A DNA stretch of 64,000 nt. Source: an uncultured Bacteroidota bacterium (GTDB lineage Bacteria > Bacteroidota > Bacteroidia > Bacteroidales > WCHB1-69). Position numbers and translations under genes: made by a program. The notes beneath the pieces are model-generated. The model was given only the letters and a program-made list of their open reading frames with translations, searched no databases and was not told the DNA's origin. How positions within the stretch are numbered: the stretch's first letter is position 1; each line of letters begins with the position of its first letter. Below, in pieces: positions 8,742-38,437 of this stretch. The stretch is from the NCBI GenBank assembly GCA_902802755.1, contig CADCNH010000003.1, positions 1 through 64,000 on the forward strand. The letters are read 5' to 3'.

Positions 8742-8846
8742 GTTACAGGTTTCAGGTAACAGGTTACAGATATAGAGACGCACGGACGTGCGTCTCTACA
8801 CTAACCCCTGACCCCTAATCACTAACCCCTAATCACAAACCCCTAA
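8741..8846. repeat. Composite repeat: heptamers, TAGAGACG palindrome, heptamers
   Basis: GGTTACA-type heptamers (8741-8769) are followed by a 12-bp-stem palindrome (8773-8784 with 8787-8798, core GCACG) and then CCCTGAC/CCCTAAT/CACTAAC heptamers to about 8846. The arrangement matches 327-417, but the palindrome core differs while staying self-complementary. Confidence 0.85.
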
Positions 8847-20489: not shown

Positions 20490-20593
20490 GTTACAGGTTT
20501 CAGGTAACAGGTTACAGATGTAGAGACGCACGGCCGTGCGTCTCTACACTGACACCTGACACCTGACACCTGACACCTAATCACTAACCCCTA
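20488..20593. repeat. Composite repeat: heptamers, perfect TAGAGACG palindrome, heptamers
   Basis: GGTTACA-type heptamers begin at the stop codon (20488-20517). A perfect 30-bp palindrome with arms TGTAGAGACG and core GCACGGCCGTGC lies at 20519-20548. ACACCTG and CCCTAA heptamers run to the terminator. Same order as 327-417 and 8741-8846. Confidence 0.85.
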
Positions 20594-28002: not shown

Positions 28003-28155
28003 GACGGGGAGACGTAGAGACGGGGCACATACCCCGTCTCTACTCGGGGAGTCTCATGCTTCGCATTCGAGGGGAGTCTCGCTAGTGATGCTTCGCATCA
28101 GGGAAGTCTTTGAATTCTGAATTTCTGATCACTGACCCCTGACCCCTGACCCCTA
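28003..28155. repeat. TAGAGACG palindrome, GGGGAGT hairpin array and heptamers
   Basis: A 12-bp stem GTAGAGACGGGG (28014-28025) pairs with 28032-28043 around a 6-nt loop. GGGGAGT copies lie at 28046 and 28071 and a GGGAAGT variant at 28101. The spacers hold ATGC-TTC-GCAT and GATGC-TTC-GCATC hairpins. CTGATCA/CTGACCC heptamers (28119-28155) lead into the terminator. Confidence 0.8.
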
Positions 28156-33037: not shown

Positions 33038-33045
33038 TATCTTTG
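33038..33045 (+). promoter_or_regulatory. -7 element of the AddB-like gene
   Basis: TATCTTTG fits TAnnTTTG and lies 18 nt before ATG 33064, implying a very short leader. It also argues against the upstream TTG at 33043 as start. Confidence 0.5.
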
Positions 33046-33063
33046 CAAAAGAAAAAAACAAAA

Positions 33064-36000
33064 ATGACTTTTCTGCAACAACTCTCCCAAGCCATCCTGC
33101 AACGTGATGACATCCCACTGAAAGACACGCTGATAGTGCTACCCAACAAGCGCGCCCGGCGGATGCTGCAAAAGGAACTGGCCGCCGGCATCTCGCAGCC
33201 TTGCTTCTCCCCCACCATCTTCTCTATCGACGAATTTATCCACAAACTGTCGGATTACACCCTCTGCGATGACATCGACCTGCTGCATATCTTATTCAAA
33301 GCATACCAAGAGTTTGAACATGCCAAAAGCGAAAAGTTGTCGGCTTTCCTGTCATGGGCCGAGACTTTCATCCACGATATCAGCGAGATAGACATGCAAC
33401 TGGCCGATGCCTCCAAGGTTTTCGGGAATCTGTCGGACATCAAAGAACTGGAAACCGTTTTTGGCCGTGAAAATCTTACCGACAGCCAGCAACGCTACTT
33501 GCAATTCTATGCCACACTGCACAATCTCTATCGCCAATTTAACAGTTTTTTAGACGAAGATAAGTTGGCTTACGAAGGCAAAATATACAAAGAGACCGCA
33601 GAGAATATCATACACTATGCGCAAAAGTTCAACTTCAAGCGATATATTTTCGCCGGCTTCCAGACACTCTCCCCTTCCGAAATGGAAATTGTACGGTATT
33701 ACCATCAGGAACATCAGGCCGAATTTTACTTCGACATAGACAAATTCTATCAGGAAAACTATACTCCCTTTATTACCATCCTTCAGAATAAACTGAAAAT
33801 CAAAGAATTGAAATGGATCCACACCGACTATGCCAGCATCCCGAAGCAAATCAACATTGTGGGTGCCTCCAAGTCCATGAATCAGATTCTATACGCCATC
33901 GAACAGCTGAACCGCATTGAACAGGAGGAAGGGAACCTGAACGACACGGTTCTCGTCTTCGCCGACGAGAAACTGCTCACCCCGTTCATCCACTGCTACG
34001 ACTGTGGCAAGGCCAATTTGACCATGGGGTATCCGCTGAATGCCACACCGGCATACGCCTTGCTCTCCACACTCATGGAAACAGCACGAAACAGCCAACG
34101 ATTCCAGAGTATGCAGCAAGGAGAATTTTTGTATTACCATAGGGATGTGTTCAGTTTTTTCAGAAATCCACTAATTGTAAAATATTTGTTTCCAGATAGC
34201 AAGACCAACAAACAATTCCTGAAAGGGCTCACCGACCTCAACAGCATATTTTTTCCGCGACAGACATTGGACTTTTCAGAATACACATTTCCGAATCTTT
34301 CTGGAAATCCTGTCGAGATTTTGGAGGAGACCCTCAACTTTTTCACTTTACTGACAACACAAACCGCCGATGATACAGCCAAGTATTTCGACCATTACTG
34401 TCTCAACCTTATACTCGACAAACTGCAACAAGCCCTTAACCATATTCGCGAATTCGACACCCAACTCATCGACCTCGAATCTTCCTTTTTCATTCTCAAA
34501 AACCTTATCCAGCATATTTCCATCCCATTAAAGGGCAGTCCCTCAGAAGGTTTGCAAATCATGGGACTATTGGAAACGCGTGCCTTGGACTTCAAGAAAA
34601 TCATTATGCTGTCGGTCAACGAGGGAACCCTGCCGGCAGGCCGGAGTAGCAACTCACTCATCCTGCATGAGGTCAAGAAATACTTCAACCTACCCACCTA
34701 TCAAGAAAAAGACACAGTTTACGGCTACCACTTCTTCCGCCTGTTACAACGAGCCGAACAGATTTACCTGATTTACGACAACGATTCAACCAACTCGCTG
34801 GCCGAAAAAAGCCGCTTCCTCAACCAACTCGACTTCGAAGTTAAATCACAGGAAATCAGTAACATAAATATCAAGGAATTGGTACTGCCCACTCTGGTAA
34901 ACACTGAGCGCAATTCAACGGAAATCAGCATCACAAAGAATGAGACCATCCTTCAGCAGCTAAAGAAAAAGCAATACTCTTATACCCACTTGAACGACTA
35001 CCTCAACTGCCCACTTCAATTCTATCTCAAACACATCGCCAAAATCAAACCCGCCGATGACATTTCCGAAAGTGTGGAACAAAAACTGATTGGCGACGCC
35101 ATACACCACTTGATGGATAAGATCGGACAGGAACTGATTGCCCAACCGTCAGCCTATCCGCAAATCATCGAGGACACACTGAAAAACATTGATAGTCAGG
35201 TCGAAGCAGCCATGAAGGAAGCCATTTTAGGGGACAGGGGGCAGGGGTCAGGGGTCAGTGATCAGGAGACCGTCCGTGGAATTCAAAATTCAAAATACAG
35301 AATTCAAAATACTAATGAGCCCGAAACTGTCAACTGTCAACTGTCAACTGCCAACTGTCAACCGTCAACTGTCAACCCAAAAATACACATCGATTTGACT
35401 CATGGGAAAAGCTATTTGGCCAATGAGGTCGTCAAGAAAGCTATCACCACCTACCTGAAGAGTATGAAAGCTGATTTCGAGAAGGCCGAGAAACAACAAT
35501 ACAGCTTCAAAATCATCGCTACAGAGCAGAAAATGACCTGCACGATTAACGTTGACCAAAAACCGATACAACTGAAGGGCTATGCCGACCGTATCGACTT
35601 CCGCAACGGCCTTGTCACCCTGCTGGACTATAAAACAGGCTATGTTAATGACAAAGGGCTGAGTTACGAGAAATTCAACGATATATTCACTGGCACCGAA
35701 CACAAGCAACTGTTGCAGTTGCTGATGTACGCCTACCTATATGAGAGGAGCCAGAGGACAGGGACCAGTGATCAGGAGACTGTTCATGGAATTCAAAATT
35801 CAAAATTCAGAATTCAAAATACTAGTGAGCCCGAAACGGCCAACTGTCAACCGTCAACTGAAACCTGTAAGCTGAAACCTGAAACCTGTCAACTGTCAAC
35901 TGTCAACTATCTGTGCGGGATTATCAGTTTCCAGCGAATGTACCAGAAAAAAACGCATGAGCTCTACCCTATTTTTCAGGGGTCAGGGGACAATAACCAG

Positions 36001-36369
36001 GGGACAGGAGTCAGTGATCAGGGGTCAGATGATGGAATGAACAATGAACAATGGACAATGCACAATGCACAATGCACAATGCACAATGTACAATGCACAA
36101 TGTACAATGCTGATAATCTGTCACCTGAAACCTGTAACCTGAAACCTGTAACCTGTAACCTGAAACCTGACGACTGTCAACTATCAACTGTCAACTCGAC
36201 TAATCTTATCACACCAGAAATACTGCGACTTTTCGAAAAACACCTCATTAATCTGCTGCGTGACATCATCAATCCTAAACAGCCCTTCTGTCAGACCGAT
36301 GATGTGAACCACTGCGTCTATTGCGACTATTCCGCCATCTGCAAAAGGCAAAACACAAAGGATGAGTAG
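33064..36369 (+). CDS. AddB-type PD-(D/E)XK nuclease/helicase-like protein with repeat insertions
   Basis: This is the probable partner of an AddA-like helicase in double-strand break end processing. The start is ATG 33064. The N-terminal half carries VLPNKRARRML and the AddB-typical LQIMGLLETRALDFKKIIMLSVNEGTLP (residues about 497-525). The nuclease module has YTHLNDYLNCP (639-651), GYADRID...LDYKTG with D855 and K857, QLLMYAYLYE, and a final CVYCDYSAIC (C1084, C1087, C1093) that with C650 could bind an iron-sulfur cluster. Three inserts made of heptamer repeats (residues about 723-771, 895-948, 972-1044) lie between motifs, in frame. Without them the length is about 925 aa, a usual size for this family. 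All catalytic motifs are kept, so it may be functional. Confidence 0.75.
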   Translation: MTFLQQLSQAILQRDDIPLKDTLIVLPNKRARRMLQKELAAGISQPCFSPTIFSIDEFIHKLSDYTLCDDIDLLHILFKAYQEFEHAKSEKLSAFLSWAETFIHDISEIDMQLADASKVFGNLSDIKELETVFGRENLTDSQQRYLQFYATLHNLYRQFNSFLDEDKLAYEGKIYKETAENIIHYAQKFNFKRYIFAGFQTLSPSEMEIVRYYHQEHQAEFYFDIDKFYQENYTPFITILQNKLKIKELKWIHTDYASIPKQINIVGASKSMNQILYAIEQLNRIEQEEGNLNDTVLVFADEKLLTPFIHCYDCGKANLTMGYPLNATPAYALLSTLMETARNSQRFQSMQQGEFLYYHRDVFSFFRNPLIVKYLFPDSKTNKQFLKGLTDLNSIFFPRQTLDFSEYTFPNLSGNPVEILEETLNFFTLLTTQTADDTAKYFDHYCLNLILDKLQQALNHIREFDTQLIDLESSFFILKNLIQHISIPLKGSPSEGLQIMGLLETRALDFKKIIMLSVNEGTLPAGRSSNSLILHEVKKYFNLPTYQEKDTVYGYHFFRLLQRAEQIYLIYDNDSTNSLAEKSRFLNQLDFEVKSQEISNINIKELVLPTLVNTERNSTEISITKNETILQQLKKKQYSYTHLNDYLNCPLQFYLKHIAKIKPADDISESVEQKLIGDAIHHLMDKIGQELIAQPSAYPQIIEDTLKNIDSQVEAAMKEAILGDRGQGSGVSDQETVRGIQNSKYRIQNTNEPETVNCQLSTANCQPSTVNPKIHIDLTHGKSYLANEVVKKAITTYLKSMKADFEKAEKQQYSFKIIATEQKMTCTINVDQKPIQLKGYADRIDFRNGLVTLLDYKTGYVNDKGLSYEKFNDIFTGTEHKQLLQLLMYAYLYERSQRTGTSDQETVHGIQNSKFRIQNTSEPETANCQPSTETCKLKPETCQLSTVNYLCGIISFQRMYQKKTHELYPIFQGSGDNNQGTGVSDQGSDDGMNNEQWTMHNAQCTMHNVQCTMYNADNLSPETCNLKPVTCNLKPDDCQLSTVNSTNLITPEILRLFEKHLINLLRDIINPKQPFCQTDDVNHCVYCDYSAICKRQNTKDE
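35230..35378 (+). repeat. Heptamer insert 1 inside the AddB-like gene
   Basis: Seven-nt tandem units GGGGACA, GGGGTCA and GTGATCA are followed by ATTCAAA units (35281-35312), a linker with GAGCCCGAAAC, then seven AACTGTC-type units (about 35325-35377). It translates without stops as GQGSGVSDQET..., IQNSK and NCQLSTV peptides. Confidence 0.85.
35747..35907 (+). repeat. Heptamer insert 2 inside the AddB-like gene
   Basis: It has the same order as insert 1 (GTGATCAGGAGAC, GGAATTCAAAATTC, GAGCCCGAAAC, AACTGTC units) and the same reading frame, plus ACCTGAA units. The shared non-heptamer linkers show that inserts 1 and 2 derive from one composite element. Confidence 0.85.
35977..36195 (+). repeat. 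Heptamer insert 3 inside the AddB-like gene
   Basis: About 220 nt of GGGGTCA, then AACAATG/CACAATG units (about 36037-36110), then ACCTGAA/ACCTGTA units and AACTGTC units. In frame it reads QGSG..., NEQWTMHNAQCTM... and TCNLKPV.... It lies between the nuclease core and the terminal cysteine cluster. Confidence 0.85.
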
Positions 36370-37242: not shown

Positions 37243-37341
37243 GGGGGGGATGGTTACCAAAGACAACTCCACTCTACAACCTCATTTTAGCATGCCGCAA
37301 TAAATATAAATTCACATGTACTCAGGTTCAGTCTATTCCCA

Positions 37342-37358
37342 CGGGAATTCCATTCCCG
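37342..37358. repeat. Hairpin upstream of the Y1 transposase
   Basis: CGGGAAT-TCC-ATTCCCG, 7-bp stem with triloop, 20 nt before ATG 37378. IS200/IS605 and RAYT substrates are small hairpins of this size; a role as an end is inferred. Confidence 0.4.
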
Positions 37359-37377: not shown

Positions 37378-38397
37378 ATGGAAAAAGAAACATTCACTTG
37401 GCAACAACCCGGAGCATGGCGTAAACCATGTATTGTTCATGCGACAATGGTTGCCAACAACCGTCAGTCACTTTTCGGCACACTCATCCATAATGGGACA
37501 AATGCCGAAGTAAAAAAAACAGCCCTTGGATGGATACTCATAAACCAACAACAACGTATGCTTGAACTTTGTCCGGAAATGAAAATACTTGCTGATAAGG
37601 TTATGCCCGACCATCATCACATTGTCCTGCAAGTTCAACGAACCATGCGCCGTAGTATCAAAGAGGTTGTGCGGGGTTATATGCAAGGTTGTAAGGCTGA
37701 AGCTCGCAAATTAGGCTTTACTGAGAACTTGTACGATGCTCCTCCATATTACCGTGTACTAACACACAAAGGGCAGCTTCAAGCAATGATTGACTACGTA
37801 TATGCCAATACTGAACGTGCTTGGCAGAAAAAACAGAACCCCAATCTCTTCCGAATGCATCGTAACACAGAAGCAAATGGTCTTTATTTCACATCTTTAG
37901 GTAATCATTTCTTACTCAACTGGCCCGAACGTCAATTGGTTGAAATGTCACGCAATACTACAGAAAAGCAAATTCAACAACGGTTGCGAGAGGCACTGAC
38001 AGCAGCACACAATGGAGCAGTCTCTTACACAGCGGCTATCAGCAAAGGGGAAAAACTTATCGCCCGCACTATACGTGAGAATGGCTTTCCCCTAGTTGTA
38101 CTTCTCAATAACGGATTCCCCGAAGAAGGCTCACCGCATGAACATTTCTACAAACCTGGTGGTGTCTATTTTGAGGCATGTTCTAAAGGAAATTTGTTAC
38201 TTCTAGAGCCTACTAAACAAACATTATTTTCCCCCTTAATCATCTCTGCAACAGAAGAAGTATTACGTCAAAAAGCCATTGACAAGCACCACAGTTATAT
38301 GCCCGTTCCCACATCCACGCAACGTTACCATTTCATTGCACTCAATGAAATAGGGAAACTGCTTGTGACAAGGACTTTGGGCTTTTCTAGCGGATAG
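37378..38397 (+). CDS. IS200/RAYT-like Y1 transposase with unusual C-terminal domain
   Basis: The N-terminal about 150 residues look like a Y1 HUH transposase of the REP-associated group. MPDHHHIVLQV (H79, H81) aligns with the family motif MPNHVHLLL, and MIDYVYANTERAW about 60 residues later carries the candidate catalytic tyrosine (Y140 or Y142). Such enzymes nick and rejoin single-stranded DNA at small hairpins. The remaining about 190 residues (ISKGEKLIARTIRENGFPLVVLLNNGFP...GGVYFEACSKGNLLLLEP) are not part of the standard enzyme and look Rossmann-like, vaguely like DprA/SLOG folds. It is not flanked by tnpB. Single-copy, domesticated-looking, and surrounded by palindromic repeats. Confidence 0.65.
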   Translation: MEKETFTWQQPGAWRKPCIVHATMVANNRQSLFGTLIHNGTNAEVKKTALGWILINQQQRMLELCPEMKILADKVMPDHHHIVLQVQRTMRRSIKEVVRGYMQGCKAEARKLGFTENLYDAPPYYRVLTHKGQLQAMIDYVYANTERAWQKKQNPNLFRMHRNTEANGLYFTSLGNHFLLNWPERQLVEMSRNTTEKQIQQRLREALTAAHNGAVSYTAAISKGEKLIARTIRENGFPLVVLLNNGFPEEGSPHEHFYKPGGVYFEACSKGNLLLLEPTKQTLFSPLIISATEEVLRQKAIDKHHSYMPVPTSTQRYHFIALNEIGKLLVTRTLGFSSG

Positions 38398-38404
38398 AAT
38401 CCGC
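38390..38404. repeat. Hairpin at the transposase stop codon
   Basis: GCGGAT-AGA-ATCCGC, 6-bp stem with triloop, overlapping the TAG stop. Together with 37342-37358 it brackets the gene. Confidence 0.4.
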
Positions 38405-38437
38405 ATCAAAGTGACAGGACAAGCAAACGTACAACCC

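Follow-up and report, generated by a model that had tools for sequence, protein, structure and literature searches.

A RAYT-like Y1 enzyme fused to a DprA-like domain and bracketed by its own inverted REP elements in Bacteroidales

What would a protein do that joins a Y1/HUH domain of the kind found in REP-associated transposases to a domain with the fold of DprA, and whose gene lies between two hairpins? The question is raised by the open reading frame at 37378-38397 (+ strand) of the window, by which we mean the whole stretch of 64,000 nucleotides analyzed here (an uncultured Bacteroidota bacterium, contig CADCNH010000003.1); it encodes both parts in a single protein of 339 amino acids. We found 78 related loci in the contigs of other genomes, mostly full length and 66-78% identical, nearly all of them from Bacteroidales MAGs of the ruminant foregut, as well as remoter full-length relatives (24-33% identity) in other Bacteroidales. 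Median dN/dS is 0.065 for the N-terminal half and 0.117 for the C-terminal half, so that both halves are under purifying selection; taken together with the 78 loci, these low values indicate that this is a real, selected gene. In about eight of the 78 loci the frame is broken or carries a stop, which may be due either to decay or to MAG error. The gene has an intact HhH gene on one side and an FAD/HdrA-like gene on the other, its own genome contains one match to the protein (i.e., a single copy), and, as had been noted in a first reading made from the sequence only, no tnpB was found among the adjacent window genes. That sequence-only reading also had a hairpin interrupting the HhH gene; the gene is instead an intact ORF of 259 amino acids, and the hairpin sits in a variable linker that is also present in the gene-less sister species.

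The N-terminal domain (residues 16-156; 37423-37845, + strand) is of the RAYT type. The whole protein was modeled with AlphaFold on a 52-sequence alignment (pLDDT 90.6), and residues 16-156 are closest to 4er8, the E. coli RAYT in complex with a REP hairpin (Z 13.0); IS608 TnpA (Z 12) and the ISDra2 transposase were also matched. Four columns (H79, H81, Y140 and N144) are invariant among the 52 homologues, which extend down to 24% identity. The RAYT-type N-terminus and the HUH motif (H79/H81) proposed from sequence are thus borne out, and of the two late tyrosines offered as candidates, Y140 and Y142, only the former is invariant and is therefore the likely nucleophile. Taken alone, the window protein has weak family matches. 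The NCBIfam model REP_Tyr_transpos matches it over residues 60-147 (E 2e-4) and also matches 48 of the 52 homologues (best E 2.4e-12). For the window protein, Pfam PF01797 gives 13.4 bits (E 0.086; curated cut-off 23) and NCBIfam NF047646 gives 21.1 bits (curated cut-off 80), a profile score that places the protein outside that equivalog, though related to it. Outside Bacteroidales, in other parts of the phylum, the profile search returned only ordinary RAYT-like proteins of ~170-220 amino acids that aligned over the N-terminal half; within the genomes sampled, the fusion occurs in Bacteroidales only. A PHROGs search gave nothing useful for the 339-aa protein, and phage relatives of the fold were rejected, the sole match below 0.001 in a viral structure library having a low probability (0.30) and a TM-score of 0.13.

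The C-terminal domain (residues 156-332; 37843-38373, + strand) has a SLOG-type Rossmann fold. The sequence-only reading had suggested a structure search against SLOG/DprA folds, and when the domain was predicted alone (pLDDT 91.4), DprA-family structures took ranks 1-7 with Z of 8.1-11.1: the best match was ShosA (8zva; Z 11.1, rmsd 3.4 over 134 residues), and the DprA proteins of H. pylori (4ljl), S. pneumoniae (3uqz) and R. palustris gave Z of 9.8, 9.0 and 8.1, respectively. After these ranks the scores dropped, to 4.4-5.9 for LOG/YpsA-type SLOG proteins and lower for unrelated folds. When the C-terminus was compared by hhalign with E. coli DprA and with an 11-member DprA profile, the probability was <5%, the DprA motifs VG-x-R and SG-x-A-x-GID are not conserved in the homologue alignment, and no Pfam family fits the domain. 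The earlier impression that this half of the protein recalls DprA/SLOG thus holds for structure and fails for sequence profiles and motifs, and we therefore speak of a DprA-like fold and not of a DprA; it differs from DprA/Smf and ShosA also in being fused to a Y1 enzyme.

The gene is bracketed by elements of its own. The two hairpins that had been reported to bracket it, CGGGAATTCCATTCCCG at 37342-37358 and GCGGATAGAATCCGC at 38390-38404, both exist and belong to the gene, and alignment of the homologue flanks revealed that the two form an inverted pair, each being part of a longer element whose outer head is conserved and unpaired. The left REP-like element (37326-37358, + strand) consists of the head GTTCAGTC, a spacer and the hairpin CGGGAAT-TCC-ATTCCCG; the right one (38390-38420, - strand) is inverted, with GTCCTGTC, a spacer and the hairpin GCGGAT-TCT-ATCCGC, and its sequence overlaps the gene's stop codon. 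In general, GT(T/C)C-N-GTC forms the outer head; a short spacer, in most cases containing TT, sets it 5-8 nt from the stem, which has 6-8 bp and the tip AT-NNN-AT. Searching 41 relatives for the pattern GTTCNGTC...ATTYYAT gave counts at the chance level, so a covariance model (CM) was used, which in a whole-genome search recovered the left element with E 3.0e-4 and the right one with E 3.5e-5.

Of 69 intact homologues, 55 have a left element and 45 a right element with the side and strand expected (37 have both and 63 at least one). Control windows drawn at random from those loci gave 2 and 4 out of 1035 (<0.5%). These are the unbiased figures; the 100% pairing seen in the stem comparison is partly by construction, the elements having been picked for a stem. 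The letters of the stem vary among species, with both sides changed in 6/8 pairs (partly by selection of elements). Mapped onto the protein tree, stem type on the left requires 6 changes, compared with 23.7 in shuffles (minimum 17), and the head type also requires 6, compared with 17.3 (minimum 12); changes as few as these indicate that the enzyme and its REP share a history.

In the window's own genome the CM found, among the candidates scored, two elements that are exactly the two flanks, so that the element appears to be low-copy here. Copy counts from the CM are lower bounds (150 candidates were scored per genome) and some weak matches are chance; with that proviso, most carrier genomes have at least 2-9 copies, largely beside the gene and with few away from the locus, and at a lenient E there are at least 15 copies in one genome (G230) and at least 18 in another (G243). 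Three gene-less congeners (G199, G202 and G203) had no element among the candidates scored, and a fourth (G205) had one match with E 0.49. Weak matches in murG, gltD and GH127 genes were set aside as they look like ordinary coding sequence; those in gltD and GH127 are found again at the corresponding position of orthologues. The dispersed copies in G243 (L142-L146) have a constant position within a composite repeat, next to tandem "cctctccacgaaaattagtgg" units.

By fold and by its REPs, the gene belongs with the RAYT/TnpA_REP group, yet it scores below the curated cut-offs. It shares with the RAYT REPtrons (class 2; PMC6006769) the fold for which 4er8 is the nearest structure, the invariant HxH and Tyr, the single genomic copy without tnpB, and the position of that one copy between inverted REPs of shared history. 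It differs from them in the additional DprA-like domain of ~175 residues, in a HUH motif that is HHH in close relatives, in a Y motif of YxxxN(T/A) as compared to YxxxNP, and in the head of the REP, GTYC-N-GTC at 5-8 nt from the stem here and GT[AG]G at the foot there. The GT[AG]G foot is not universal among RAYTs, being found in subclasses 2.2, 2.4, 2.5, 2.7 and 2.8 and not in 2.6 or class 3; further, the subclasses with large C-terminal domains are without REPs, and those with REPs have mostly short tails (PMC6006769). The combination of a large C-terminal domain with REPs, as in the window family, is absent from that survey, which describes no DprA-like domain in any subclass. Subclass 2.6 (Bacteroidetes) is similar in phylum, in REPs that lack GT[AG]G (compared with ours by published description) and in that copies can be present at other genomic places, but it has a median length of 179 amino acids and a short tail, and a DprA-like domain is not described for it (PMC6006769). 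The CGTC-tagged REPs (PMC3733652) resemble the window-family elements in that many heads are partly GTYCCGTC and the palindromes have ATTCCC/GGGAAT arms. In the CGTC-tagged REPs, however, the CGTC abuts an 8-9 bp stem with AT base pairs at its base and a 4-5 nt loop, and no transposase gene was reported with them (PMC3733652), whereas the window-family elements have the tag away from the stem, the AT pairs at the loop and a 3-nt loop, and they flank a transposase gene. In the openly readable papers searched, we found no description of a Y1-DprA fusion or of its combination with an inverted hairpin pair of its own, which is weak evidence that none exists.

Given the two folds, the catalytic residues, the inverted pair of REPs, the shared history and the purifying selection, all of them shown by computation, we consider it probable that the gene is a divergent REPtron, in which a RAYT-type Y1 enzyme acts on its own REP ends in single-stranded DNA (ssDNA) while the DprA-like domain holds ssDNA. 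We infer that the enzyme cleaves and mobilizes its REPs and that its C-terminal domain binds ssDNA, with RAYT biochemistry (PMC8266576; 4er8) as the model for the action of the Y1 domain. This domain would bind its own REP ends as folded single strands (a GTYC-N-GTC head and a hairpin), read the head and cut near those ends via Y140, with the metal held by H79/H81. The ends would then be rejoined or transferred, which would account for the inverted REPs, the local multiplication and the occasional dispersed copies. DprA binds ssDNA through the Rossmann fold in question, and for this reason we would expect the DprA-like domain to hold ssDNA next to the hairpin; perhaps it also oligomerizes the enzyme or passes ssDNA to host recombination. 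A bolder version, that this is the first RAYT with a built-in ssDNA-binding DprA-type domain, coupling excision to ssDNA protection (or RecA loading) and defining a new non-GTAG class of REP, is one we put forward tentatively and with considerable doubt. The family is of interest for joining REPs to a large extra domain with the fold of a known ssDNA-binding protein, and for adding a REP class without the GTAG tag along with many enzymes naturally paired with their REPs (stems GGGAAT, GCAAAT, GAGAAT and GGAAAT) in which the evolution of recognition can be studied. The mechanism by which RAYTs move REPs is unsolved (PMC8266576), and any role of the DprA-like domain in cutting, strand transfer or REP spread is directly testable.

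The gene could also be read as an autonomous insertion sequence of the IS200/IS605 type, with the whole gene transposing between two hairpin ends, although we think this unlikely. Such an element would have a Y1 domain and a hairpin at each end, and the distribution of the gene is in keeping with it: only 1 of 9 species of the genus carries the gene, and the equivalent site holds intergenic DNA of about 100 bp without a gene in two congeners, an HTH and HipA-like pair in G205 (L137), and a segment of 1.7 kb that contains an ORF of 170 amino acids in G203 (L138) and G199 (L139). Between the congeners, this intergenic DNA has diverged too far for an alignment that would place the exact insertion boundaries of the window element. 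The homologues, moreover, lie in many neighborhoods, both flanks being common to only ten small groups among the 78 loci; these groups show local vertical inheritance within and different sites between. Against an autonomous element, the gene has kept its site among related species. IS200/IS605 elements have a tnpB partner and multiple near-identical copies, but no tnpB lies beside the window gene and its own genome has a single copy; and while known IS200/IS605 ends are on the same strand and asymmetric, the two ends here repeat one REP in inverted orientation and share its outer head, as in REPtrons.

Less likely still is a nuclease-sensor that serves the host, for example in phage defense or DNA repair. 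Its SLOG-type domain would sense a nucleotide or ssDNA signal and trigger the HUH nuclease, the REPs being regulatory sites or relics. The strong purifying selection on both domains and the patchy distribution of the gene would suit such a role, as would a best structural match to ShosA, the antitoxin of the ShosTA anti-phage system. The PADLOC search, however, gave no match for the 339-aa protein, the neighbors of the window gene (HhH and FAD/HdrA-like) are not defense genes and do not include the ShosT toxin gene that is paired with ShosA in ShosTA, and the REP stems and heads track the enzyme, which is the pattern of an enzyme-substrate pair.

The proposal of the sequence-only reading that the TAGAGACG palindromes owe their origin or movement to the enzyme is scarcely credible: enzyme and palindromes do occur in one genome (29 places), but eight gene-less congeners all carry the palindromes too (5-48 places in each), which rules these out as the substrate, and they differ in sequence from the gene's real cognate repeats, the GTYCNGTC hairpins, and do not flank the gene. 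The TAGAGACG family is symmetrical, with ends GTAG...CTAC, and its half-sites number 11 in the window against 0.9 expected; symmetrical GTAGAGACG...CGTCTCTAC palindromes lie at 359-384, 8773-8798, 20521-20546 and 28015-28042. Judged by their sequence, these palindromes look like the "double foot" REPs that have been linked to subclass 2.4 TnpA_REP (PMC6006769). No RAYT of the subclass 2.4 type was recognized in the window's own assembly, which is 88% complete; six Pfam Y1 genes are present elsewhere in this genome and, where the reading frame could be recovered, have a YxxxQxxHH motif that resembles that of subclass 1.2.

In-frame REPs are already known (PMC6006769), and GTYCCGT-headed palindromic elements were seen in frame inside unrelated genes of G230 (L160-L164, L190), the genome that carries the homologue at L069. 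Elements that combine this kind of head with a GGGGATTTNNAATCCCC hairpin occur there at least five times in the open frame of unrelated genes: four encode peptides of the VPxxxGDxQSP type (in fmt, aroB, a GH97 glycosidase and a 580-residue frame) and a fifth, in the other orientation, is in a phosphopantetheinyl-transferase-like gene; a sixth, with the peptide VPSFKGDLQSL, is in another ORF. In fmt and aroB the elements lie in loops for which most orthologues have a shorter version. Under the bolder reading given above, the RAYT-DprA-like system might also seed short peptide insertions in host proteins. In the fmt gene of another genome (G228, L212), the same loop is occupied by a long insert of a different sequence, SLPLKGEGGHHPEQ...PLSPFEGERGRG, which is apparently a further type of intragenic repeat. 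The window itself contains, at 33043-36369, a large nuclease-like ORF with repeated low-complexity peptides (e.g., SDQETVxGIQNSKxRIQNTxEPET...NCQxST), and the presence of these repeats at several places in the ORF suggests in-frame repeat insertions in a coding gene.
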